Position numbers and translations under genes: made by a program. A stretch of 64,000 nucleotides of DNA from Powellomyces hirtus (taxonomy: Eukaryota; Chytridiomycota; Chytridiomycetes; Spizellomycetales; Powellomycetaceae): positions 1 through 64,000 of the forward strand of contig JAHLKG010000037.1 in NCBI GenBank assembly GCA_025526995.1, read 5' to 3'. Below the pieces are notes generated by a model. The model had not been told where the DNA came from. It made no database searches and saw only the letters and a list, made by a program, of their open reading frames with translations. This document shows, one piece after another, positions 4,300-64,000 of the stretch. Numbering within the stretch: the first letter of the stretch is position 1; each line of letters begins with the position of its first letter.

Positions 4300-7200
4300 A
4301 TGCTAGTCGATAAGCGTAAACGGAAGCCGAAAAATCAAGGCAAGTCAAGTCACCTTCAACTCGTCCCTGTTTTTGGACATTGACAAAGATCGTGTTGCTC
4401 ATTGCGGTCATTGCAGACTGGCCTATCCCACCCCCGGGACAAAATGACCATGCGGAACCACAAACACATCCTCCTGTCAAAAGAGGGGTCGGCAGACCGA
4501 GAAAGGTCCACCTCATCACCTCGTCATCCCCGAACACTGCCAACCAAAGCGCGACGAGCTCGTCCCTAGATCACCATGCACACCACTCCATTCCTCACAA
4601 AACCCGCCGCTCTTCTGGCCGTGTCACAACAGAGTCCCATTCTGAGGCAGCTACAACCCCAACACCATCGGCCGGTCGCGGCAGACGACCCGGCCGACCT
4701 CCTAAAAACTACAGCTCAGTCGCCAACAGCGCCCGGCAAAACTCCACTCGAGGAGGTCATGCGAAAGTTTCGACAAATTCACACGTAGCTGAAGGCTCGT
4801 CAGCCTCCCATTCTACACCAGTACGAACTGGCAATCATCCAGCGGCGGCGAACCGCGGCGGACGCGGCAGGGGCAAAAACGTGAAAGGGGCGGTTGGAAT
4901 GAGTTCAGGCCAACCGCCAGGGGCCAATCGCAAATCATCAGCAGGAGAGACAGCAGCACATCCAGTTCACAGTTTTCAGTTTCCCAACCGACACAATTCG
5001 CACCATTCAGCCAATCACCACGAGCAGGAGCGCGACAGCGAGTCAGATTCAGAACCTCTGTCTGTCCGACAGCAGATTGTTTCTGGCATGGAGCGCCGAA
5101 AGCGCAATCTGATTGAAGCACACAATAGAACTTTGCGGAAAATTCTGGACGATTACGACACAAAGCTACGCGAGATGTACTATCTTGAGCACAATCTTCC
5201 CCTGTTGGATTATGACGTCGCAAAGCTGAAGCAGGACAAAGGAGAACGCATGATCAATGTAACGTAGCTCTTTCTTCGCCCATCCCTGCATGAATGGGAC
5301 ATTAACCGCCGTCGGCTTTTCAGTACCTGAAAACTGCTGATCTCCGCACCATAACCGCACACAGTTTGGCTGCGGAAGCCTTCAAACAACAGTCAGAACA
5401 GCAGCGAAAGGACAGATATGGCACTCGCGGGTTGACTACTCGCCAGGAAAAGTCATTGGACTCCCTTATTGAGTCGGCCATTGTGGCAGTAGATGAGTTG
5501 CTCCCTCGATCAGCCCTTCTCGATCGTCAAGCCACACGTTACGCCAACTTGGACGAGTACTTTCAATCCTTCCTCTACCTCGATGACGAAGAAATCACCC
5601 ATGAGGCTCTCCGTGACCGCGTTCAAAAAGAAGCCAAAGTGGAGATGCAGATAGCTGCATACCGCAAAATGGGTTTGCTGAAGGGTATAACGCCGGCACA
5701 ACTTGAGCGAAGACCAGAACCTGCCCAGAAAACGCACTGGTCCCGGGTGCAAGATGAGATGAGGGTCGTCAGCGGGGGTTTTGCGCATGCTGGAAAGGAG
5801 CGTGTACGCATGACCAGGTTGTGCAGCAAAGCCATCCAAAAGTATTGGGAACTGAGACTTACCGCAGGAGAACGGACTGCCGCAGCGCAGGAACGGGAAT
5901 GGAAACGAGCATTCAAAGCAGTCAGAGTGGAACTGTGCAAGAGATGGAAACTCGTCGAGTCGATCATCAAAATACAGCACTCCAAACTTATTGCGGAAGA
6001 GCAACGTCAGGCGGGTATGCGACAGCTTGACGCCATGATCGAGCATTCATCGACCGTATTGCAGAGCCGTCACCCAGGACGCGAAGAACGCAGCGCTTCG
6101 CCCTCTTCGAGTATCCGGTCTGCTTTGACCTTTGAAGATTCCGAAGATTTTTCCGTGGACGGTGATGATAGTGACCTTGACATCGACACAAATGATGAGA
6201 GCGATCAAAATGAAATGGACGCGCTGCAGAACGAGATGGATATCCCGGTCGAAGACTTGGTGGATAGCAGCTACTTTGCATACAGGGAAGAAGCAAATGA
6301 GGCGCCTCCCGAGTCTGGGGATGATGATGACGATGACATGGAGGGTGGGGAAAACTATGACGAAGATGGCGGGGAAGACGATGACGCCTCAAATTATGTG
6401 TTAGCAGAGGAGGAACTTGCAGAAGATCCCAGTCCGCCATTATGCGAACAAGTACGCAACAACACTCACATTCGTCAAGATCAAGAGTCAATGCTGTTTT
6501 CAAACCCCTCGTCTGCGCTCGCGTCAGAGATGGGAGCAGATTTTTCCGATTCCCTCGAACCTGTGTCGAGCCCATTTTCGAGATCAGCGAATAGCATAGA
6601 CACTCCGGTCACCAGCAGAAGCAACTCACCAGAAGCAAAGCTGCGCCGCGAAATGGATGATGAGTTCGTTGTTGATGAGGAGGTGGATGGCGACAATGAG
6701 GAGCATGAGGCCGAAAAGGAGCTTGACCTGGAGGAGACATTGGAGGATGGTGACAGCGACGAAGAGATGAGGGGCCTGCAGGATGACATGGACATGGACA
6801 TCGACGCACTGCGGGACGCGATGCGACGGATGGAAGAGGAAATGGTACACTCGGGTTCTTACGAATCTGAGGAATCTGAAGACGCGTCTGAAGTCGAATC
6901 CGGATTAGAGTTCGATTCTGAGTCCAAAGATGCGACAATGGACTCGCCCATAATAGAAGACCAGAATTATCCCGAGTTAACGGAGGGAGGTGCCGCGGTA
7001 TCAATGGGCGACAAAACCAATGGCCATGATCGCACCTCAAGCGATGGGAGCATGGATCTGATTGCAGTCCCCACAGATGCGAATTTCGAAGAGAGGGAAG
7101 ACGACTTCTCCATTCTTCCTGCACAGACCAGCACCATGGATGATGCAGTTCATGTGAATGACGGCAATATGTCGCAGATGCCTGTCGAGCCGATGGCTAT

Positions 7201-10200
7201 ACCCGCATCTCCGCAAGATGAACAATCTGTCAAACATTCTCAGATGTTTTCAGCTGCAGAACCATCGGATGGCGGTGTGTCTCCATCTGAAACCTCGGCC
7301 GACAATGGCTATCGACTAGGAGACAACCTAGCTACCCTGACCAAGCAACCCAACCTCTTCTCAGATGCAGGCGACATCCCCGGCGATACCATGGATCTCT
7401 CAGAGCCTGCTCAGGCGGGGATCCCTGAGAATTTCGAGTCTACGGAGATGAACGAGGTGGCCCATGCGGATGCTTCAAATGTGAGGACACCCGTGCCGTT
7501 CTTGTTGAAACACTCATTGCGGGAATATCAACATGTGGGCTTGGACTGGCTCGCAGGGTTGTATGACAGTGGCCTCAACGGGATCTTAGCTGACGAGATG
7601 GGTCTGGGAAAGACCATACAGACGATATCGTTGTTCGCTCATCTAGCAGTACAAAAAGGAGTGTGGGGCCCGCATCTTATCATCGTCCCGACATCCGTGA
7701 TGTTGAACTGGGAGTGCGAATTCAAAAAGTGGCTTCCCGGATTCAAGCTCTTGACGTACTATGGAAACATAGCGGAGCGCGCTGCTAAGCGAGTTGGATG
7801 GCTGAAACCCAACTCATTCCATGTGTGCATCACCAGTTACCAGATTGTGCTTCGCGATCAGCACATATTTCGGCGAAAACGGTGGGCCTATCTGGTTCTG
7901 GACGAAGCTCACAACATCAAGAACTTTCGCAGTCAGAGGTGGCAAACTCTCTTGGGATTCAACACGGAGCGTCGGCTGCTACTCACGGGAACGCCACTAC
8001 AGAACAGCTTGATGGAACTGTGGAGCTTGCTGTACTTTCTGATGCCTGCCGATTCCGGGCCCGGGGAAGGGGGTTTTGCAGGCCGACAAGAGTTCAAAGA
8101 GTGGTTCGAAGGATCAGTTTCACAGCTGATCGGCGATGGCAGCAGTCTGCTTGCGTCCAACATGGCGGATCCTGAGACCCGTGCGTCGGTCGCACGCCTG
8201 CATGCCGTTCTTCGGCCATACATCCTGCGCCGGCTGAAAGCAGATGTGGAAAAGCAGATGCCGGGAAAGTTCGAGCACGTTGTGAAATGTCGGCTGAGCA
8301 AACGGCAACGGTTTCTGTACGATGATTTCATGTCGCGCGCCAAAACAAAAGAAGATCTCGCTTCCGGGAACTATCTGAGCATTGTGAACGTGCTCATGCA
8401 ATTACGGAAAGTTTGCAACCACCCCAACTTGTTCGAAGAACGGCCCGTCGTCACGGGATTCGCTATGCCAGAAGGAGGCGTCGCTTATGAGGTTATGGGC
8501 ATGGAAGAAACTCTTATCGCGCGGCGACTACTGAAAGACACCGATGACAACATAAATATCAAACGACTTGGACTGCAGATTATCGATATCCAGCGTGAGG
8601 GCACCTACGGCTGGTCTGGATTTGACGGGCAGTGTCTGAGGAATCTGGAGGCCGAGTCTCTGATCAACCATTCGCTGCACGGGGCCGTTACTGCGGAACT
8701 TGAAGCACGACGGCTACTTCCGCTGGACGGCAAGTATCGCACTAGCTTGGAGTGGGCAACCGTCCGACGTTGGAGAACCGCTCGGGATGATGTATCGTTC
8801 TGGGAGCGGACCGCGCATATTAATCGCATTCGCTGTGCGGTTCGAGGACCCATCTACAGCCGTGGTGTGATACGTGCATGTCGGCAGTTGGCAGCTCGAG
8901 AAGTCGACGCAATTGTGCAGCTAAGTGAGGATCCTCGCAGAGCGGGCGGTTGCAGCTGGTCTCTCCGAAACGCTGTGAAGACCCCATATGAGCGCGCGGG
9001 CGCTATGGCTGAGATTATTGGGCGTTTTGCTTGTGTTACGCCACGAGCGCGCGTCCACCCGTTCAGATTCGACGCTTCACCACCTGGATTCGATTTTGCG
9101 CGAGACATTGTGGATTTGGGATCGTTGACAACCAGTCTGGAGCGTTCATGCGAGCAGGATGTTCTCAGTTTCGCCAAGACCAGATTGGAGATATCGTTTC
9201 CAGATAAGCGATTAGTCCAATTTGACTGCGGCAAACTGCAAACTTTAGACAAGCTACTGCGAAATTTGAAACAGGGTGGACATCGGGCCCTCATCTTCAC
9301 GCAAATGACCAAAATGCTGGACATCCTCGAAGTGTTCCTCAATCTTCATGGACATCGTTACTTGCGACTCGATGGATCTACCAAAGTGGAATCCCGTCAG
9401 GTCCTGATGGAGCGATTCAACAACGACAAGAGAATTTTAGTCTTCATCTTGAGTACCAGAAGCGGTGGTATCGGCATGAACTTGACGGGTGCCGATACCG
9501 TCATTTTCTACGACAGCGACTGGAACCCGGCCATGGATGCCCAAGCGCAGGATCGTGCGCACAGGATTGGTCAGACGCGAGAAGTGCACATCTATCGATT
9601 CGTCAGCGAACATACTATCGAGGAGAACATGCTGCTCAAAGCGAACCAGAAGCGACAGCTTGACAAAGTCGTGATCCAGGCTGGCGATTTCACGACCGAG
9701 TGGATGCAGAAATCCAGCGCTGGTGGGGATGGCGGTCGCTTGGGCGAATGGAGAGATTGGTTGGACCCCGACGTCGTGACCGCCCCGCGCGTACCCGAAC
9801 GAGCGGCGGCCATCGAGTGGGAGAAGGCGATATTGCAGGCCGAAGACGAAACGGACGTGGTTGCCTTGAAACGTGCTCAGGGGGAAGTTGAGCGAGATGT
9901 TGCGGAATTTGATGACACGGGCATCACAGTGCTGGAGGCGGAGAATGCACTTGCCTCTACGCCCGCGAACATCACGCAAGCTGCAAATGATCTCGAGTGT
10001 GGCTCGCAGCCCACCGACTCAACTGAAGGAACTTCCAAAACACACGCAGCTGCCCCATCACATGCTCCACATACGTCCACGTCAGTTGGGCACAAAGTGG
10101 GACCATTGGACGAGTATCTCTTCCGGCTGCAAATTTACCGTATGGACTTGAGCGACGTTCTCGACTGGCGGGATTTTGGCGAGGAACTCAGAGACGTTGG

Positions 10201-10261
10201 CGAGGAGCGCGAACGGCTTGAACGCGTGCAGTCGGATGGCGGTGTTGGTCCGCCCGTATGA
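4300..10261 (+). CDS. SWR1: SWR1 complex Swi2/Snf2 ATPase (H2A.Z exchange)
   Basis: Catalytic subunit of the SWR1/SRCAP remodeller, which swaps H2A for H2A.Z in nucleosomes in the nucleus. Modelled exons are 4300-4339, 4417-5258 and 5324-10261, giving 1939 aa. The N-terminus is basic with AT-hook-like GRPRK (about aa 40) and GRRPGRPPK (about 102-110). An HSA domain lies near aa 430-510 (HWSRVQDEM...IQKYWEL), then long acidic Asp/Glu blocks. The ATPase has DEMGLGKT (about 1051), LVLDEAH (about 1152) and, after the roughly 270-aa insertion that marks SWR1/INO80-type enzymes, the C-lobe ending in QDRAHRIGQTR (about 1703). Intron 2 is an ordinary GT-AG of 65 bp. Intron 1 (4340-4416) is best modelled as GC-AG: it joins a basic ATG exon in phase and no in-frame ATG exists otherwise. 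A GT donor at 4349 is a weaker in-frame alternative. SWR1 is preferred over INO80 because of HSA placement and the acidic linker. Confidence 0.93.
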
Positions 10262-39894: not shown

Positions 39895-41946
39895 CTACAC
39901 CTCACAGTACGCCACTTGCGCAACAGTAAATCCCAACCGTCTCGCGTGATGCACAACTTGTGCGCGGTCATCAAACATCATCCCAATGACATGTGTTTTG
40001 TGTATCTCACGCCACATGTCTTCCTTGATGAGAAAGTCCGCGCGACGGTCACTCAACTGTCGCATGTAGAGTGCGGAGAACGAGATTTCGTTGTCGCAAA
40101 GCCATTGCTCGGTGTCGGCTCTGCAGCCCTCCGTACGGCCTGTGCACATGACGATGGTGGAGCCGGCCTTGTGCAGTGCGCGCGCAATTGCTGCGACGTC
40201 GGGAACGACGAGATCGGAAAGGACTTTAGATTCGTCGAATCTATGGCGGTTGTGGCGGGTGGCGAGGGTGCCGTCAATGTCAAAGACGATACATGTCGGT
40301 GCTGGGGAGGCCAGTGTCATGGGGGATTGGAGTTGGGTTTCGCAAGTTGTTCTCCAGCTCCTGGTTGAACGCAGCTCGTCGTCGATTGATTGTTGAAGAG
40401 AGTCCTTGCTGGCTGCGAATGTCGCATATTGATCCGCGAGACGCGCTAGGGTTACTCTATCTGAAGCAGCCAGTCGTCTCACGCATTCATCCAACGCCGT
40501 ATCCATAGCTCGAACGACGACGGAGCATCCATGGGGGACCGCCGACAGGAGCGGTAGAACATCGCTGGCATCCAGGTACGGGCCGTCCGCAAGGACAGTC
40601 TGACCTCGGAGTAGGGCATGTCGGATGGCCGTCAGCTCCATGCGGACCACTTCCTTTTCGCGAGCTGCAAAGCCCTTGGAGGTCTTGTTCGCTTCTCTGT
40701 CCTGCGGCGTAGTAAGGACAAACATGGCGTCACGCAGGGCGTCGCGGGAAACAACGACACTGGAAACGTGAGTGGCAACCCATCGGCGTGCAAACGTTGT
40801 TTTGCCTGATCCTGAAATGCCCAAGAGAACGACGAGCGACGGTAATGAATCTTTCGCGGAAGGACGAACGCGCCGCTCGGTGAAGATAGGGGCGGCTGCC
40901 GTTTGGGATTCCATTTTGGCTGGATCGATAAGGGCCAACAGCTTCTTTCGAGCGTCTTGTTTGCTGAACATCATGAACAACGCGGGCTTGATTTGGGAGG
41001 ACTGGATGGCTCGGGCGAAAGCTGCCCTTGTACAATCTTCGCCGCCAGCATCTTGGATTGCAGCCACAAACTCTGCGTCGGCTTCGACGGATAGCCGTTG
41101 GAACTCGGTGTCAATGTTTGCGTAAACTGTTTCCGCCCACTTCATGAACTCGTCTGGAATCCCCTCGCAGACCTTGTCGAACGGCATGCCGCTTGCGTAC
41201 TGCTCAAGCAGCCACGGTGCGTTCATGTTGCTGCCGACCTTGTGGAGTGCCAGATAGCGCGCAAACTTGACCTTGATCCGGGTGCCGTTCGCGAACCGCA
41301 CAACGTAGCCTTCCTCGTTGTGGAGATCGCGGGCGCGTAGTTCGGCCATCGATGCGGCTGGGTGCTCTTGAACGACATCTACTCCGCATTGTCGTAGCAG
41401 GTCTCGTTGCGCGAGATCTTCGGATCCATCTGTGCGGAAAGCGGCGAGAAAGACTAGGCGTCTCTGGGCCCCGTAGTCAACGACGATGCGGTTTTCAGGG
41501 TAAATGATCTCGAAGCTGTATGCTAAATCGGGATCAAGATGTCTGCAGAGATCGGGATACTTCTCTCGCAATATCTCTGCTCCGATGATTGCTTGTGAGC
41601 TGTCGAACGATCCTCGGGATGCCATTATCCAGCTCCCGCGGTAGCAGAAGAGTATCCCAAGACATCCGTCCATCTTGGTATAAACGGTGAAATCAGGTGT
41701 CGCTTGGTAAGATCTTTCAGCTTCGTTGAAGAATTTGGAGAATGATCGAGCGACAACGGTCCCTTGCTGATCAGTGACGAGCCCGCGGCATTGCATTGTG
41801 ATGTCGTCCCATTGTCTGTAGGCCTGAACGGCTTCGGTGTAGTTCCAGATAAGAAGGTCGTTGCTTGGGTGGACTTTACATCTGAGTTTCTTGTTGGCGA
41901 CGTAGGTCTTCAACGAGGAGGTTTCGAATGATGTTGGTAACGTCAT
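39895..41946 (-). CDS. Trifunctional RNA-repair enzyme: Rnl1-type RNA ligase - polynucleotide kinase - 3'-phosphatase
   Basis: A single-exon 683-aa protein with three catalytic modules for sealing broken RNA. Residues 1-330 are a T4 Rnl1-like ATP-dependent RNA ligase: RGLVTD (54-59), the adenylation motif KMDG (Lys91), SRGSF (110-114), FEIIYPENRIV (145-155), EGYVVR (212-217) and IKVKF (224-228). Residues 365-540 are a 5'-kinase with P-loop GISGSGKT (376-383), SRD (400-402) and an Arg-containing lid (ECVRRL). Residues 550-683 are a HAD phosphatase like the T4 Pnkp C-terminus: FDIDGTLA (Asp556, Asp558), CTGR and FDDR near the end. The order ligase-kinase-phosphatase matches phage T4 Rnl1 plus Pnkp joined, and the baculovirus RNA ligase; fungal Trl1 instead ends in a cyclic phosphodiesterase. 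All key residues are present, so it is probably active. Transfer from a virus or bacterium is an inference from architecture and lack of introns. Confidence 0.92.
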   Translation of the reverse strand: MTLPTSFETSSLKTYVANKKLRCKVHPSNDLLIWNYTEAVQAYRQWDDITMQCRGLVTDQQGTVVARSFSKFFNEAERSYQATPDFTVYTKMDGCLGILFCYRGSWIMASRGSFDSSQAIIGAEILREKYPDLCRHLDPDLAYSFEIIYPENRIVVDYGAQRRLVFLAAFRTDGSEDLAQRDLLRQCGVDVVQEHPAASMAELRARDLHNEEGYVVRFANGTRIKVKFARYLALHKVGSNMNAPWLLEQYASGMPFDKVCEGIPDEFMKWAETVYANIDTEFQRLSVEADAEFVAAIQDAGGEDCTRAAFARAIQSSQIKPALFMMFSKQDARKKLLALIDPAKMESQTAAAPIFTERRVRPSAKDSLPSLVVLLGISGSGKTTFARRWVATHVSSVVVSRDALRDAMFVLTTPQDREANKTSKGFAAREKEVVRMELTAIRHALLRGQTVLADGPYLDASDVLPLLSAVPHGCSVVVRAMDTALDECVRRLAASDRVTLARLADQYATFAASKDSLQQSIDDELRSTRSWRTTCETQLQSPMTLASPAPTCIVFDIDGTLATRHNRHRFDESKVLSDLVVPDVAAIARALHKAGSTIVMCTGRTEGCRADTEQWLCDNEISFSALYMRQLSDRRADFLIKEDMWREIHKTHVIGMMFDDRAQVVHHARRLGFTVAQVAYCEV

Positions 41947-51816: not shown

Positions 51817-52656
51817 GATGCCGCCGCTTTCTCAGAGATAAGAGTTATTTCCGTGTACGTGCGTGTACTGAATGGAGACTCGTTATAGAATTCCACACGT
51901 TGCAACTCTCCTCTGCGGTCGGTCGGTTGGTCTCGTCAGTCCGTCAGCTGCATCACGTGACATGGCTACTTCTAGACTCCTGAGAACAGCATCCCCGTAT
52001 TTAGGTCAGGCGCGAGGGAGACGCAAAAGTGAAAGTCAGTCCAAAGGGGCAATCACTCTTTGGCTTCACTCTTTGGCTTCACTCGGTCGGTCAAACACAA
52101 AGCTGCTCTCAGTCAAATGGATTGATGGCGTCGTTTCTCCTTCAGCCCTCCTTTCATGTTGTTTCACTCACTCGCCTTCTATTCTCAGTCTCACTAATAA
52201 TAGTCGAGAAAGGCAGAAATGGGGGAATGCCTATTTCCAGGATGGTCACTAGATTGAGGATGGTCTATATCAAGGTGACAAAGAACATTCTGTTTCCTTC
52301 CAAATCACATGACACACCTCATGGATGACGTGGACCGAGTGACGTCATCTCGTTGGTTCGTGTTGCTCATCAAAGTCACACACGCGTTTTCCCCCTTTTT
52401 CTCTCACTTTGTTCACACTCCGCCCATTTCCACTTACTCCCTCTGATGGATTGATGACTGCCTGACTGCCCCTTCCTTTCCGACATCACCCCGTCCACAT
52501 TGACATAATTACGGTACTTTTTTACATATCTACGCGACCTTGGCCCTTCGTTCCTCCTCCGTTTGTCTTTCAATTCTTACTCCGAGTCGTCTTTGTTCGT
52601 CACCCCTTCCTTTTCCACCATATTCCATCTGGTACAGCCACCCCCCCATCCATCAA
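51817..52656. promoter_or_regulatory. Divergent intergenic region SRP54 / lipid kinase
   Basis: About 840 bp between two divergent start codons, with CT-rich stretches just upstream of the lipid kinase ATG (52555-52650). A repeated tctttggcttcactc occurs twice near 52055-52082. No gene or TATA box is seen. Confidence 0.4.
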
Positions 52657-54558
52657 ATGGCTGTAGTGGCCCAGTCGCCCGTCGTCCCCCCCGCACTATC
52701 ATCTCCCAAAGACTCTTCTTCCCCTACCCTTTCCGCCTCTCCCTCCACTGACACCAAAGTCGACGACGGCAGCATTCAACGCAAACCGACTGGCGAGAAA
52801 TCTTCTGCTTCCGACAACATCCCGAGCCAGCAGCAAACCTATCACGACCAAGACCTTCTCCAGCTGCTCAACATGCCCCCGGTAGCCATCGGCGATGATT
52901 CGTCCATCCACGCGGCCCGCGACGACAATCTCAACCCCAAAACGTCCCACACTCGCCACGAGGACGACCTCGCCCTCCCAGCCGCCAGCCCCACCGACAC
53001 TGTCAAAGTTCAAGGCCGCTCCGAAAATGCCCAAGACACTGTCAACGACGGTGCGGCCACGGTCGAGGCAACCCCAGAGGAAGGCGAATCGCTGGTTGTC
53101 GTTCCCACCCACTATGTTTTCATTTTTTCCAACCCGCGTTCTGGCAACCAACAAGGTCTGCCGCTCGTCCAAATGAACATTCAGCACTACCGCATGCGCG
53201 ACCATCCTCACGTGCAGGTCCAGCTCTACGATTTCCTCGACGAAAGCGACCGCTCCGCCGGTCTCAAATACCTCAACTTGCTGCTCACCAAGCAAAAGAC
53301 CCTCAAAGAGCTCCACGTCTGGAGCGCCGGCGGTGACGGAACCCTCATGGGTGTGGTCGAAGGCATGATCGAAATGGGCATCGACGTTGCGGACGACCCG
53401 CGTGTCCTGTTTAGCGTCATTCCCTTTGGAACCGGCAACGACTTGTCCCAGGTCCTCGGATGGGGACGCTACGTCTCAGGCACCGACGTTGCCGGACGTC
53501 ACCTCGAAGGCCTCAACAAGCTCGTAACAGACCGTTTGAACGGTCACAAGACGCTGCTCGACATCTGGGGCGTCGAACTCGAGACCGAGGAAGGTGGATG
53601 GGTCCGCGAAGCCGGCAAAGAAAAAATATCCACCCTCCGCCGCAAAATGTCCAACTACTCGTCAGTCGGTCTCCAAGGTCGGGTCGGAGTCGGATTTGAG
53701 GAGAACCGTCGTGGATCCCGCGTCATGAACGCCGTGGAATACTCTAAACAATCGCTTGGCGTGCTGATTCACGGCGCACCAGCCATCACCGACGCGGTCA
53801 AGGGTCTTGAGGCCGGCGGCGAGTACTTTGATCTGGACGGTGACAAGTCCCTCCGCGTCACTCACGAACCCATCGAAATGATCATTCAGAACATTCCCGG
53901 CATGTGGGGTCGCCACGTTGACCTTTGGGGAGTCGCGGAAATGTCTCGCTCCATCGTCCGCGAACAAAAGGGTCCCACCGATCTCACCCAGTGGACACCG
54001 CACTGCGCCTACGACGGCAAGCTCGAAGTCTTTGGCATCGGATCCCTGCGCTCCTATCTCCGCAAACAGTTTTCTTTTGGCCGCAAGCGTCTGCAACGGG
54101 TCGGTCAGATGCCGTCCCCTTTCACCATTCACTTTCACCCGAAATCAAAGATCCACGCCATGATTGACGGCGAGTTTTACGAAACCTGTGGGGCCAAGAA
54201 GATGACGTACACCCGCATCATGCAAATCAAACTCATTGGCGGACACCCCGACTCTTCGCGTCTCGTCAGCGACCTCCAAAACAAGGTCGCCGAACAACCA
54301 GGACCCACCGGTGAGGGCCTTATTCCCGGCGTCGACTTTCCCGTCGGAAAGACGGAATACGCGGAAGAGACCAAGAACGACAGGGTAGAGCGGCGGCAGA
54401 GTCAAGAGATGATTTCTGCGCGAAGCCGCGGGTCTTCGGCAAAGTCTCACAAGTCAGCAAGCAAACCGCACTCCCCAGCCACGTCCTCCACTCCTCTTCC
54501 CGCCACTTCCAACCCCACCACTCCCGCACCCGCTACTGCACCGACGCCCGCCCGGTAG
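52657..54558 (+). CDS. Diacylglycerol-kinase-type lipid kinase
   Basis: A 633-aa, single-exon eukaryotic-type DAG kinase, phosphorylating diacylglycerol or a related lipid to its phosphate at membranes. The first ATG (MAVVAQSP) is chosen; the open frame extends upstream without ATG. Residues 1-145 are Ser/Pro-rich and disordered. The catalytic domain starts at YVFIFSNPRSGNQQG (about 149), with the ATP-binding SAGGDGTLMGVVEG (about 221-234) and VIPFGTGNDLSQVLGWG (about 255-272). The accessory domain includes NYSSVGLQGRVGVGFEENR (about 336-355), DGKLEVFGIGSLRSYLRKQF and IDGEF, the usual end of the fold. No C1 or PH domain or membrane segment is present, so recruitment must be by other means. 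The C-terminal 60 residues are Ser/Thr/Pro/Ala-rich. Confidence 0.87.
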   Translation: MAVVAQSPVVPPALSSPKDSSSPTLSASPSTDTKVDDGSIQRKPTGEKSSASDNIPSQQQTYHDQDLLQLLNMPPVAIGDDSSIHAARDDNLNPKTSHTRHEDDLALPAASPTDTVKVQGRSENAQDTVNDGAATVEATPEEGESLVVVPTHYVFIFSNPRSGNQQGLPLVQMNIQHYRMRDHPHVQVQLYDFLDESDRSAGLKYLNLLLTKQKTLKELHVWSAGGDGTLMGVVEGMIEMGIDVADDPRVLFSVIPFGTGNDLSQVLGWGRYVSGTDVAGRHLEGLNKLVTDRLNGHKTLLDIWGVELETEEGGWVREAGKEKISTLRRKMSNYSSVGLQGRVGVGFEENRRGSRVMNAVEYSKQSLGVLIHGAPAITDAVKGLEAGGEYFDLDGDKSLRVTHEPIEMIIQNIPGMWGRHVDLWGVAEMSRSIVREQKGPTDLTQWTPHCAYDGKLEVFGIGSLRSYLRKQFSFGRKRLQRVGQMPSPFTIHFHPKSKIHAMIDGEFYETCGAKKMTYTRIMQIKLIGGHPDSSRLVSDLQNKVAEQPGPTGEGLIPGVDFPVGKTEYAEETKNDRVERRQSQEMISARSRGSSAKSHKSASKPHSPATSSTPLPATSNPTTPAPATAPTPAR

Positions 54559-55093: not shown

Positions 55094-57831
55094 ATGGCCC
55101 GCAAAAAGCATGGCAGAAAGAGCCTGGAGCGGCCACAGACCGCCGCTCAGGACGAAGTAGACTACACCAAAAACGCCTCTGCCAACCTCGACAACATTGG
55201 TCTCGACTCGGAGGACGAATTCCACCACCAGCGCGAGTCAATAGCTCTCGAGAGTTACAACAAAACAAAGCCACGCCGTCGTCGTGGCCAGGTCGACTCG
55301 GATGACGAAGCTGACGAAGAAGTGTTTGGGTTGGGAATTGAGGATTCAGAAGACGAGCAGGACAGTGAGGCGTTCGAGGACGAGGACGACGACGGTGAGG
55401 AAGATCAGGACGAGGCGCTCCTCAAGAAACTCCAGATGCAGTTAAAGAGGGGTGGAGCTGTGGTTGGAGACAGTGACGACGACGATGACGACGAAGCTTT
55501 GAACAGCAAGACGAAGAAGAAAAGGGCCGGTGACGACGACGAAATGGACGACCGAGCGTGGGGAAACTCGCGCAATATGTACTACAACGCCGACGAGGCC
55601 TCTGACGAAGACGATGCCAAAGCCGAAGAGGAGGAAGCGCTCCGTCTGCAGCGTCTCCGCACAAGCCAGATGCGAGAAGAAGACTTTTTGGACGAATTTG
55701 AAGACAGTTTCGGGAAACGTATCGGCGGCGATGCCGGGGCTACCGGCTCGCATTCTGCAGCCACCCTCACCGACGACGTTGACGATCTGGACCACCTTGC
55801 TCTGTCCTCGGCGTTCCCGCTGAACCTCCTACCCTCTGCGCAGACCGAGGTTGAGGTGGTTTCCCGCGAAACCAGCAATCTGTCCCCGGCCGAGTTGATC
55901 AAAGTGGCAGAGTCAAGCATTCCGGAAGTTGTCCACCTCTTGGCGGAATTCAAAGAGAGATGGCAGGAGTGTCGGGAGATTTTGGGACCGGCGGTGGCAT
56001 GGAAGTGTCACGCGGAGGAGGCCAGTGCGAGTGCGAGCAGAGGCCGCGAATATGTGGAGTTGAAATTCCGTACGTTTTTCCTCATCGAAAGGGTGGCGTG
56101 GCGTTCGCAATTTTCTGCTTCTTCTTGTTCTGGTCTGACAATATTTGCATCTCGCCCCTTTTTTTCCGCCGACTTTTAGGACTCCTCTCTACGTACCTCA
56201 CCAACGTCGCCTTCTACCTGTCTCTCCGCGCCAACCCACCACCAGGCGTCAACGTCACCGGCCACCCAGTTGTCGACTCTCTCGTGCAACTCCGTGAGCT
56301 CCTGGAACACCTGGAAACGCGCGTCGAAGGCCGCGTGCTCTCCGATGACGACGACGACGAGAGTGAAGCTGACAGCGATCAAGATGCGGCTGCCAAAAAG
56401 CGACGACGGAAAAGAAAACGAAAGGAGAAGAAGATTGCGGCGAGAGGGAACCCGGAACTCCAAGCCGCGGTTCAGGCATTCCTCGACCGTGGACCTTTGG
56501 ACTTGGAACACGAAAATGAAAATGACAGCGATAGAGATGAGGAGGAAGAAAGCAATGACAGCGTGCCCGAGATAATGGTGCCACCCAAATCCACCACAAA
56601 AAAGAACAAAAAGTCCTCACCCTCTACCGCCACTACCACATCATCAACATCACCATCATCAGCATCAGCAGTCAACGCCAAGACGAAGAAGAAGACGGCC
56701 GCCGCGGCTGCTGCTGCGCTCAACGACTCGGAAGTCCCAGAAATGGAATACGTGCCGCTAGCCAAACTCAAAAAGAGCAAAACGACCAAGGCGAAAATCG
56801 CCCGTGGCATGGCCCATGATTTTGGAGAAACGGATGATCTGGACGCGGCGGACCTCGACGACAAGTTGCAGAGAAAGAAGAGTCTCAAGTTCCATGTCAC
56901 CAGAGTCGATCAGGTATGTGTGTGCAAACACGAACAACACTCCCTACGCCCATCTCTTGCATCTATGAATACGCGCCCGCGTAGGCAGTCACGTGCTCAC
57001 CTCGCTCTGGTTTGTTTCCTTCTCTCTCTCTCTCCCTCTCGCTCACAGGCTATCACCGCCCGCCACAACCGCCTATCCCGCTCCGCAGGCGGCGACGAGG
57101 ATATACCCTACCGCGACAAGAACGGTCAACTCATCCTGCCCTCTGGCAACGAACCGCGCGGCCCGTCACCCGAGAAAGTATTCGACGCCCCCGACGACCT
57201 CGAAAACAACTCGGACAACCACTCAGAGGTCGACGAGGATGAACTGATGCAAGAGCTCATGAACGCCGGTGGACTGGGAGGACGTGCTGCGGGAGGAGGA
57301 CGCAAACGCGCCCGCGAGGATCAAGACGATATGGATGTCTTGAGCGATGGTGGGGATCAGGATCTGGCTTATTACAATACAATCACCAACGCGAAAAAGA
57401 GCAAGACCAAGGAGCATGAAGACCGCGTACGGGCCGAAAAGGAAGCGGATGCTCTTGTCAACAGGTATGACCCCCCAAAAAAAAATCCCTCCGCCCTTTA
57501 TCTATCACTAAATGGTCGTTTTGTTTTTGTTTCTTCTCTCTTACTCGGATTCTCTTCTCTCAGCCAACCGTACCCTGACGAAGAGGAAATCGACTCGCAC
57601 ACCAAGCGCCCCGCGACCTACAAAATCCTGGCCAACAAGGGCCTCACGCCGCACCGGTCGAAAGAACAGCGCAACCCGCGGGTCAAGAAACGCAAAAACT
57701 ACGAACGCGCGCAGAAGAAACTCGGCTCGTTCAAACGGCTCGTCAAGAACCCGGCCGACGCGAGAGGCTATGCGGGAGAGACAACGGGGATCAAGTCGAA
57801 TTTGGCCAGGAGTGTGCGGTTTGCGGCGTAG
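55094..57831 (+). CDS. UTP3: Small-subunit processome protein UTP3/SAS10
   Basis: Nucleolar protein of the U3 small-subunit processome, needed for 18S rRNA maturation. Exons 55094-56069, 56180-56913, 57049-57464 and 57564-57831 give 797 aa. It starts MARKKHGRKS and has long acidic blocks (SDDEADEEVFGL, SDDDDDDEA) typical of the family. The Sas10/Utp3/C1D domain spans intron 1: LIKVAESSIPEVVHLLAEFKE, then LLSTYLTNVAFYLSLRA and VVDSLVQLRELLEHLE. After Lys-rich and acidic linkers, exon 3 has the ITARHNRLSRSAGGDEDIPYRD region. Exon 4 has the Sas10 C-terminal domain: YKILANKGLTPHRSKEQRNP, RVKKRKNYERAQKKLGSFKR and GYAGETTGIKSNLARSVRF. All junctions are GT-AG and phases agree. Confidence 0.92.
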
Positions 57832-61974: not shown

Positions 61975-62197
61975 TTAGAAGACGGCCAAGGCGGCGAGTA
62001 GAATGGGTGCGAGGCTGGCAGCACCCGTGCGGAGGGTGGTGGAGGCACCAGAGAGGACAATGTCGCCGATCTTGGTAGGGGGGGCGGGGCCGGTGGTGGT
62101 GGTGGTGGTGCCGGCGGGCGCGGCAACCTCGATTGGGGCTGGGGCGGGGTTGGTGGTGGTGCCGGCGGGCGTGGCAGCTTCAATCGGGGCCGGGGCG

Positions 62198-62232
<35 letters not shown>

Positions 62233-64000
62233 GGGGGCGGGCTGAGCAGGGGTGGTGTCCACGGGCAAGGGCTTGTACTCGGGCTTGGGGTCGACCTTTG
62301 TCCCCCTCTCATCGGTGACGGGTCCGGCGTTGGTGTTGACGGAGAGGGTGCCAATGTCGATATCGCACAGGATTCCCGAGTATCCGGGCGCGCAGTAGCA
62401 TCCGTTGGAGGTGCAGACGCCGTGTTGACCGCAGCCCTTGGGGCAGGTCTGGGTTCCGAGTCCCGAGTCCTTCTGGGTTTGTTTGCCGCTTTCCTGTTCC
62501 TTGGGATCTGCGCTCTGCACCTGCGCCTGGCTCTTGGCGCGGCAGTTGGCCAGCATCTGTTCCTTTGCGGATTCGGAAAAGATGAATGTGCCCGTGCGAG
62601 CAGCGTCCTTGATGCACGAGTGGATGTAGAAGGCTTTGGCCGTCAGGGCAGCGCAGGAGGGGACATTGAAGAGGCTGGTGCAGTATTCGGTGGCTTGGTT
62701 GAAGAACGCCTCTGGGCAGTTGTCGGGACGCGTCGGGGCCTTGGGGGTCTCTCCCGGGGCTGTGATCTCGTCATCGGCGGGGACCGGTGTGGGGGCACCC
62801 GGGGCAGCAGGGGCGGTAGTAGTAGGAGCAGGCACGGCAGCAGTGACGGGGTAAACGGGCGCTTTGGGGTCGTACGCAGGAAGCTGGGTGATGGTGGTGT
62901 AGTACGTGTCGGTGACGACGACGGTGGAGACGACCACGGCGGTGGGTGCTGGGGGCGCGGGGACCGGGGTTTGGGTGATGACTTGGGTCACTTGGACCGT
63001 GTTGACGACCGTCGCGGTGGTGACGCCTCCGACGACGGTGGTGGCGATGGTGGTTTCGGCTGGCGGCGCCGGCGCGGTCGTGGTGATGACCTCGCCCTCC
63101 TCGGTGATGGTCAAGGTCACCGGCTCGAGAGGCGTCTCGATCGCGGCGGGTTCGGTGTGCTCAATGACTTTGGTGACGGTCGCGGGGATGACGGTGGTGA
63201 TGACTACGGGTTCAGCAGGGAGTTCAGGCTCGGGGTTGTTGTTGGGGAAGGGGACGGGGACCTTGCACCATTGTCCGGAGCTGGTGTCGCCGTTCTTCTT
63301 GCCGCCCGAGCATTTGGCACCGCAGTTGAAGATGTTGTCGTCGTGGGGCACGATCCAAGAGTCACCAAAGACCTTGGCACTCTTGGTGATGGATCCATCC
63401 GCGCAGGTGAGGCCGGTGGCCACGTCGCTTCCCTCCTCGTACGTGTTGCACAGACCCCCGACGGAGCGCGCAAACGTGGACGCCAGACGAACCGTGACAT
63501 CGACGTAGTTGAAGCTGTTGAAGGAGTGGGAGAGGAGTTCGATTTGCGATCCATCGTGGGCCATTTCGATCAGGAACTTGGAGTTGGCGACGGAACCGGT
63601 GATTTTCAACCCGTCGAGCGAGTCCGAAGCTTGACGGAGGGCCATGGCGGTCGAGGCTTTGTCGTTGGGGTCGGTGGAGATGACGACGACGGATTCACCA
63701 AACCGGATGGCGACCCCCGAGTTGCAGGTGGCCTTTGTCGGGGCGTGGCACTCAAACTGCGCCGTCTGGATCGTGAGCATGTCGTTCTTGACCAGGTAGT
63801 GGACGCCGGTGGTGTGGTAATCAAAGGTGGATCCGCCAAACGTCTTGTAATGCGGGTCACCGAGCGTCGTGCAGGTCTTGGCTGGGGTCTGCGCGCGCTT
63901 GCACTTGTATTCGGCGTTGTTGGCGTGGTAGGGTGAGCCCGGGGCCATGGCTTTCCCGGTGATGACAAAGTCGACGTCGCCGGCCTTGGTGAACTGGGGC
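61975..64000 (-). CDS. VWD-domain / EGF-like GPI-anchored surface protein (5' end missing)
   Basis: The frame is open to the right edge, so at least 675 C-terminal residues are present and the N-terminus lies outside. From the edge inward: a von Willebrand factor type D domain (CTTLGDPHYKTFGGSTFDY near 63870, then VGGLCNTYEEGSD and DSWIVP); a Thr/Val-rich linker with repeated TTV units; a Cys-containing segment (CPEAFFNQATEYCTSL... SCAALTAKAF); an EGF-like module (CPKGCGQHGVC...CYCAPGYSGILCD, about 62370-62460); a low-complexity region with an (AP)n run (about 62185-62240) and PAGTTT repeats; and a hydrophobic C-terminus (SLAPILLAALAVF) after a small-residue cleavage region, indicating a GPI anchor. 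The layout suits a large adhesive cell-surface protein. No intron is needed in the visible part. Confidence 0.85.
62185..62240 (-). repeat. Ala-Pro dipeptide repeat in the VWD gene
   Basis: A short tandem repeat based on gcaggagcag on the plus strand, translated as alternating Ala-Pro on the minus strand. It forms part of the extended stalk of the surface protein and is prone to length change. Confidence 0.85.

Follow-up and report, generated by a model that had tools for sequence, protein, structure and literature searches.

The first 64,000 nucleotides of contig JAHLKG010000037.1 of the chytrid Powellomyces hirtus (order Spizellomycetales; forward strand, positions 1 to 64,000; hereafter the window) contain a gene for a fusion protein, P0001, in which a T4 Rnl1-type RNA ligase, a polynucleotide kinase (PNK) and a HAD-type 3'-phosphatase are joined in one chain. 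We consider it fairly probable that this is a host chytrid gene for a T4-type enzyme that heals and seals RNA ends apart from tRNA splicing, with a degenerate kinase and a phage-type origin. What the sequence analysis shows directly is the architecture of the protein, the state of its residues, the phylogenetic trees and the co-occurrence of the gene with matches for Trl1, Tpt1, Sen and Clp1. What is new is the fungal home of the fusion and the erosion of its kinase, the architecture itself being already known from viruses.

Architecture of the fusion protein

Pfam signatures occur along P0001 in the order RNA_lig_T4_1 (residues 51-169, 1.9e-15), AAA_33 (370-509, 4.8e-15) and HAD_PNKP (549-679, 2.3e-34). 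Almost the entire protein is spanned by two PHROG models, one for phage RNA ligase (22-347, 3.4e-55) and one for phage polynucleotide kinase (369-680, 1.4e-56). This three-domain architecture is far beyond chance. The gene gave a single match across its own assembly (29.26 Mb in 60 contigs, the window lying on C37), and its codon usage resembles that of its neighbours (r 0.84 with the other genes of the window). The original prediction of a one-exon, 683-codon open reading frame (ORF) with its own TATA box was verified (Table 1). It had also regarded the intronless state as a sign of oddity, a view that the window does not bear out, since three other frames of at least 658 codons with domain matches, for SNF2 helicase, diacylglycerol kinase and Sas10, are equally uninterrupted in the window.

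State of the ligase and phosphatase modules

The ligase part of P0001 has T4 Rnl1 as its top fold match and passes the PF09511 cut-off (57.7 versus 28.3 bits), with invariant ligase motif residues, namely R54, K71, K91-D93-G94 (motif I), E146, E212, K225, K227 and Y231. It scores 55.3 bits with TIGR02308, the T4 RnlA equivalog model, under the cut-off of 242.25; judged by these scores, it is a member of the same superfamily as T4 RnlA and not a T4 equivalog. The active-site residues are intact in 11/11 proteins of a chytrid clade, to which P0002, P0004, P0007, P0151, P0153 and P0157 are assigned by their grouping with named chytrid proteins. In the six members of this clade that have a kinase domain, 0-2 of 61 conserved ligase columns are altered.

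Similarly, the C-terminal module scores 119 bits with the HAD_PNKP model (cut-off 27.6), and 21.3 bits, below the cut-off of 750, with the bacterial Pnkp equivalog model TIGR04075. The phosphatase residues of T4 Pnkp, which we take to be D165, D167, R176, R213, D254 and D278, all have equivalents in P0001. The positions mapped on T4 Pnkp are identical in 50/50 aligned proteins, except S211, which is S or T. Conserved phosphatase columns are altered in 0-2 of 30 cases in the five chytrid-clade proteins with this domain.

Apparent erosion of the kinase module

For the kinase of T4 Pnkp, we assume the catalytic residues to be K15, S16, D35, R38 and R126. Their equivalents K382, T383 (for S16), D402 and R405 are present in P0001, and the position of the lid arginine R126 is occupied by S495. 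In this column, 33/35 three-domain proteins from outside the chytrid clade have Arg, whereas P0001 to P0005 have S, I, a gap, E and G, respectively, and P0007 has A. K15 is retained in 49/50 proteins and D35 in 50/50. R38, which is kept in P0001, is replaced by H, Y, A and S in P0002 to P0005, and the P-loop of P0003 has decayed to GLPGMHTR. The earlier claim that all catalytic motifs of the three modules are present is thus correct for the ligase, the phosphatase and the kinase P-loop (K382/T383), D402 and R405, but not for the lid arginine or the DxTN motif, which reads DGPY.

To put this erosion on a scale, we used the 16 kinase columns that are at least 90% conserved across the 35 non-chytrid three-domain proteins. 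P0001 alters four of them (T456P, N457Y, I463V and R495S), and P0002, P0003, P0004, P0005 and P0007 alter 6, 11, 6, 5 and 8, respectively. In a leave-one-out control, the 35 non-chytrid proteins showed 0.51 changes on average and 3 at most. For P0001 alone, the altered columns are 4/16 in the kinase versus 3/91 outside it (Fisher p 0.009). The kinase of P0001 therefore looks degenerate, being worn next to intact ligase and phosphatase sites, and this weakens the notion of a complete heal-and-seal enzyme.

Table 1. Positions of the fusion gene, its modules and key sites, and of other uninterrupted frames in the window.
Feature	Position	Strand	Description
Ligase-kinase-phosphatase fusion gene (protein P0001)	39895..41946	minus	one exon, 683 codons + stop, ATG to stop
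TATA box TATAAAA	42005..42011	minus	65 nt upstream of ATG
T4 Rnl1-type RNA ligase domain	40906..41919	minus	residues 10-347
K91, expected AMP-acceptor lysine	41674..41676	minus	aligned to T4 Rnl1 KEDG lysine (2c5u/9do4)
T4 Pnkp-type kinase domain, apparently eroded	40399..40848	minus	residues 367-516; AAA_33 match
Kinase P-loop GISGSGKT, intact	40798..40821	minus	residues 376-383
P-Y in the kinase DxTN motif, which reads DGPY	40576..40581	minus	P-Y at residues 456-457; T-N in at least 90% of 35 non-chytrid fused proteins
S495, at kinase lid arginine position (T4 R126)	40462..40464	minus	alignment to T4 Pnkp
HAD 3'-phosphatase domain	39907..40302	minus	residues 549-680; D556, D558, R567, R604, D637, D660 intact
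SNF2 helicase, uninterrupted frame	5306-10258		1651 codons; domain match
Diacylglycerol kinase, uninterrupted frame	52504-54555		684 codons; domain match
Sas10, uninterrupted frame	55855-57828		658 codons; domain match

Other RNA-repair enzymes encoded in the genome

The exons for the ligase, kinase and cyclic phosphodiesterase (CPD) domains of Trl1 lie together on contig C1 of the P. hirtus genome, which is also where the PF08302 (CPD) match of the genome is located. P0001 has no PF08302 match and was rejected as a member of the Trl1 family for lack of this domain. The genome also encodes Tpt1 and a DNA-type PNKP, and it has matches at two places each for tRNA-intron-endonuclease domains and for CLP1_P kinases. 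With Trl1, Tpt1, endonuclease and CLP1_P matches present, tRNA splicing appears to be already provided for, and further RNA 5' kinases exist. The second RNA-repair system besides Trl1 that had been proposed for this locus is supported by these matches. Because the genome encodes all these proteins as well as an RtcB-like ligase, P0001 is probably a second RNA-repair enzyme that does not serve splicing. That it would overlap with Trl1 as a backup or condition-specific ligase for tRNA splicing or HAC1-type processing is improbable in our estimation.

The RtcB-family ORF (positions 1096-2823 of locus L013; C9:558601-559698 of the genome) represents a third RNA ligase of P. hirtus. It scores best with two models, reaching 300.7 bits with PRK09588 (cut-off 407) and 244 bits with TIGR03073 (cut-off 271.8), in both cases below cut-off; these are presumably models of RtcB2-type proteins. 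A search of the genome with a PrfH model returned matches below its cut-off only. In bacteria, RtcB2-PrfH guards against colicin E3, which cleaves 16S rRNA (PMC9223846).

Distribution of the family

We collected 216 proteins through single-protein and profile searches, keeping the 120 best matches of each (out of 982 for the profile search), and classified them with hidden Markov models built for this analysis. Three domains were found in 40 of them, five from the chytrid clade (P0001-P0005) and 35 others. Five proteins (P0144-P0148) have a ligase and a phosphatase, one short protein (P0007) has a ligase and a kinase, and the remaining 170 consist of the ligase only. P0144-P0148, which retain the HAD phosphatase without a recognizable kinase, are found at four places of the ligase tree.

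Named orthologues come from Geranomyces variabilis (P0005, on an 857-kb contig) and G. michiganensis (P0003, on a 401-kb contig), and the ligase occurs alone in Fimicolochytrium jonesii (P0152) and Rhizophlyctis rosea (P0155). Among the 120 best matches of each search, most of which are nameless, none was named Spizellomyces, Gaertneriomyces, Phlyctochytrium, Thoreauomyces or Borealophlyctis, although these genera do occur in a search with the diacylglycerol kinase. This patchy occurrence among the named genera of the matches kept, the erosion of the kinase and the fact that relatives have lost their PNK part would fit a decaying gene without present function, on its way to becoming a pseudogene. 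However, the conserved ligase and phosphatase columns are kept as well in P0001 as in other members, and the frame is open over 683 codons with native codon usage and a TATA box, which makes such a fate slightly less probable still than a role as Trl1 backup.

No fused ORF was found in the best 80 of 315 bacterial loci or in the best 80 of 531 viral loci (from at least 600 stretches). Both a ligase and a PNK are carried by 70/80 bacterial and 5/80 viral loci. In 52 of these 70 bacterial loci the PNK frame follows the ligase within 300 bases, including 38/70 in which the two are at most 20 bases apart or overlap; in the other 18 the frames are farther apart or in reversed order. Two of the five viral loci have the two frames within 300 bases, in one (L021) they are 386 bases apart and in two they are far apart. 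Within L094-L173 (Bacteroidota, Streptomyces and cyanobacteria), 12 Flavobacterium-type loci instead have the PNK approximately 2.5 kb downstream. Scans of viral contigs with the single fused proteins P0012, P0008, P0136 and P0128 yielded no relative. Further scans with two alignments (A3 and A4) gave 57 loci and the best 80 of 170; the fused ligase-PNK architecture was absent from 135 further loci of these scans, in which one ORF (L271) had a ligase and another model.

This ORF (L271, 3627-6056) codes for 810 residues; its RNA ligase domain is preceded by a weak P-loop match (14.8 bits) on the N-terminal side. In L278 (4980-7046) and L268 (1654-3732), ligase genes are split at profile position 145/146 by approximately 1 kb, and the L278 insert contains a 320-residue ORF. 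Neither insert has an Rfam intron match at the gathering score; they are possibly an intron or an intein with a homing endonuclease.

Phylogeny and origin

A ligase tree of 72 sequences was built with 15 ligase-only proteins kept (an earlier tree had subsampled 31/170), and a PNK tree of 54 sequences after 14 near-copy bacterial loci had been dropped and the non-fused sequences further thinned to 15; the long-branched P0016 was left out of the careful trees. In the ligase tree, 45 fused and 9 nested ligase-only proteins form one clade (support 99/93), whose sister group comprises the phage-type contigs L021 and L041, with separate ligase and PNK genes, and the ligase-only P0149. Read by eye, the ORFs of L041 include portal-like and head-morphogenesis-like ones. 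In L021 (424-8592), a PolA-like gene is in two parts, with a GroEL-like gene, the RNA ligase gene and the PNK gene lying in between; by the same kind of reading, the ends look like a split intein.

The chytrid clade is recovered with full or nearly full support in all trees. It comprises 11 proteins in the ligase tree (100/99): five consist of the ligase only, and the other six carry at least one further domain. In the tree of the PNK part, its five members form one clade (100/100) inside a 12-protein set (97/82), and the phage pair L021/L041 joins eight fused proteins (97/92). Placing all fused sequences of this tree in a single clade was, however, not rejected by an approximately unbiased (AU) test (p 0.077). 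With the kinase alone, the six chytrid-clade proteins group together (100/100) and the phage pair is found with six fused proteins (96/86). With the phosphatase alone, five chytrid-clade proteins group together (100/100) in a fused set of 46 (100/98), at the base of which the phage pair lies in a placement that is not settled. One early fusion of a phage-type ligase/PNK pair would be the simplest reading of these trees; alternatively, a second fusion or a split in phages may have taken place. In the ligase tree, the genes of the two Geranomyces species do not pair with each other (support of the intervening forks 84-89), and paralogy or loss is therefore likely; inheritance inside the chytrids looks vertical but patchy.

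The phylogeny of each domain had been named beforehand as a check on lateral acquisition. Ligase, kinase and phosphatase each nest in the chytrid clade, so that any transfer would be older than this clade. The part of the proposal that stands is an ultimate phage-type ancestry, as the phage-type contigs are the sister group in the ligase tree, and recent capture is the part that falls. On the domain trees, we rejected the idea that the gene came recently and directly from one of the phages or bacteria sampled. That the domains are of phage type would fit a gene captured not long ago from a viral or bacterial source, or contamination. Nevertheless, in addition to the trees, the Geranomyces orthologues on large contigs, the native codon usage and the eukaryotic neighbours all speak to the contrary; the diacylglycerol kinase gene at a distance of 10.6 kb matches P. 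hirtus at 98% identity (over 93%) and two Geranomyces at 79% and 77%. Recent capture or contamination is thus largely refuted, and we consider it highly improbable.

As a separate observation, the end of the window (62001-64000) has a G+C content of 0.639, against 0.41-0.55 in the remaining 2-kb steps. This segment also shows a strong G skew, tandem repeats with units of 51 bp and 6 bp, and long ORFs on either strand.

Proposed function

From the above we infer the enzyme activities, the transfer history, a 5' kinase acting in trans, the substrate and the source of the nuclease. A ribonuclease, for which the original proposal named ribotoxins or defence nucleases as candidates, would cut an RNA and leave a 2',3'-cyclic phosphate or 3'-phosphate, which the HAD phosphatase would remove to yield a 3'-OH/2'-OH end. 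The 5' end might be phosphorylated weakly by the degenerate kinase of P0001 itself, although a host kinase (the Trl1 kinase domain or a Clp1/Grc3-type enzyme) would be the likelier agent. The Rnl1 ligase, adenylated at K91, would then join the ends by an ordinary 3'-5' linkage that lacks the 2'-phosphate left by Trl1. The family would derive from adjacent phage-type ligase and PNK genes and be older than the split of the chytrid clade, in which the healing modules, the kinase most of all, may be in the process of being lost.

Several points weigh against this scheme. Because the P-loop, D402 and R405 are retained, the P0001 kinase may still work. When paired with P0002 or P0004, the P0001 kinase is no outlier in overall divergence (z -0.55 and 0.02, respectively), the signal stemming chiefly from those pairs that include P0003 or P0005. 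The weight given to the lid arginine derives from work reported on T4, and single-residue alignment is less certain in the kinase lid than elsewhere. The in-trans kinase is a conjecture. Finally, the phage pair falls outside the fused family by the ligase and inside it by the PNK and the kinase, and this disagreement makes a single fusion uncertain. P0001 could be a fully trifunctional, self-sufficient repair enzyme, as first proposed and as in the baculovirus PNK/PNL, that tolerates altered lid and DxTN positions; its intact P-loop, D402 and R405 and the T4-like fold of its modelled kinase domain would allow this. Both the lid arginine and the DxTN motif are lost, however, and in the related protein of G. 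michiganensis the kinase is decayed altogether; we regard self-sufficiency as rather unlikely, albeit the most serious competitor of an enzyme with a degenerate kinase.

If the kinase of P0001 is indeed degenerate, its decay predicts that 5'-phosphate ends are sealed and 3' ends cleaned, and that 5'-OH ends need an outside kinase. More tentatively, some chytrids and the 35 other carriers might run an RNA repair that bypasses Trl1 and Tpt1, in which a phage-derived protein performs 3' cleaning and scarless sealing, a host kinase providing the 5' phosphate in chytrids; that the kinase has been lost repeatedly while the ligase stayed would then represent a take-over of one healing step by the host. 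The textbook view is that fungi use one ATP-dependent RNA ligase, Trl1. A second, phage-type ligase maintained in a chytrid clade alongside a seemingly complete Trl1 route would suggest that non-splicing RNA repair is a standing function in at least some fungi. The chytrid-clade and metagenomic sequences include forms with three domains, with two and with the ligase only, on which one could test which healing step a host can assume.

Comparison with known systems

A fusion of Rnl1 and PNK in a fungus is nowhere described in the literature searched, outside which most subscription papers lie. Among viruses, the PNK/PNL protein of the baculovirus AcMNPV combines ligase and kinase-phosphatase in one trifunctional chain of a length similar to that of P0001. 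The top viral fold match of P0001 is an iridovirus kinase/ligase (BFVD A0A5B8RI79; E 5.9e-41, 738 columns, 21% identity). Its 699 residues are near the 683 of P0001, in which the ligase precedes the kinase-phosphatase, but a matching domain arrangement is not established given the TM-score of 0.39 and root-mean-square deviation of 24.9. Several giant-virus proteins, one of them named tRNA ligase, align with P0001 over >600 columns at 11-12%. Iridovirus, baculovirus and phage RNA ligases fall in related clades according to a review on large DNA viruses (PMC3493329).

For a eukaryotic group, the bdelloid rotifers, a defence against ribotoxins by RNA ligases gained through lateral transfer has already been proposed in print; their non-metazoan RNA ligases are up-regulated under fungal attack (PMC11258130; also PMC10809525). 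The domain trees of that study include PF09511 (PMC11258130), and the available parts of both reports mention no kinase-phosphatase fusion.

Rnl1 and Pnkp of phage T4 belong to the same ligase and kinase-phosphatase families as P0001, with matching folds. They repair tRNA-Lys after PrrC cleavage (PMC3400036), and phage RNA repair serves as a counter-defence (PMC7824862). The T4 system consists of two proteins, whereas P0001 is fused, eukaryotic, devoid of the kinase lid arginine and 19-31% identical by region. Fungal Trl1 is, like P0001, a three-part chain of ligase, kinase and 3'-end enzyme with a related ligase fold, but it ends in a 2H phosphodiesterase in place of the HAD phosphatase. In bacteria and phages (Bacteroidota, Streptomyces, cyanobacteria, Arthrobacter phage Bauer), ligase and PNK genes that lie next to each other encode the same domains, ligase first, in two separate ORFs, unlike the single chain of P0001.
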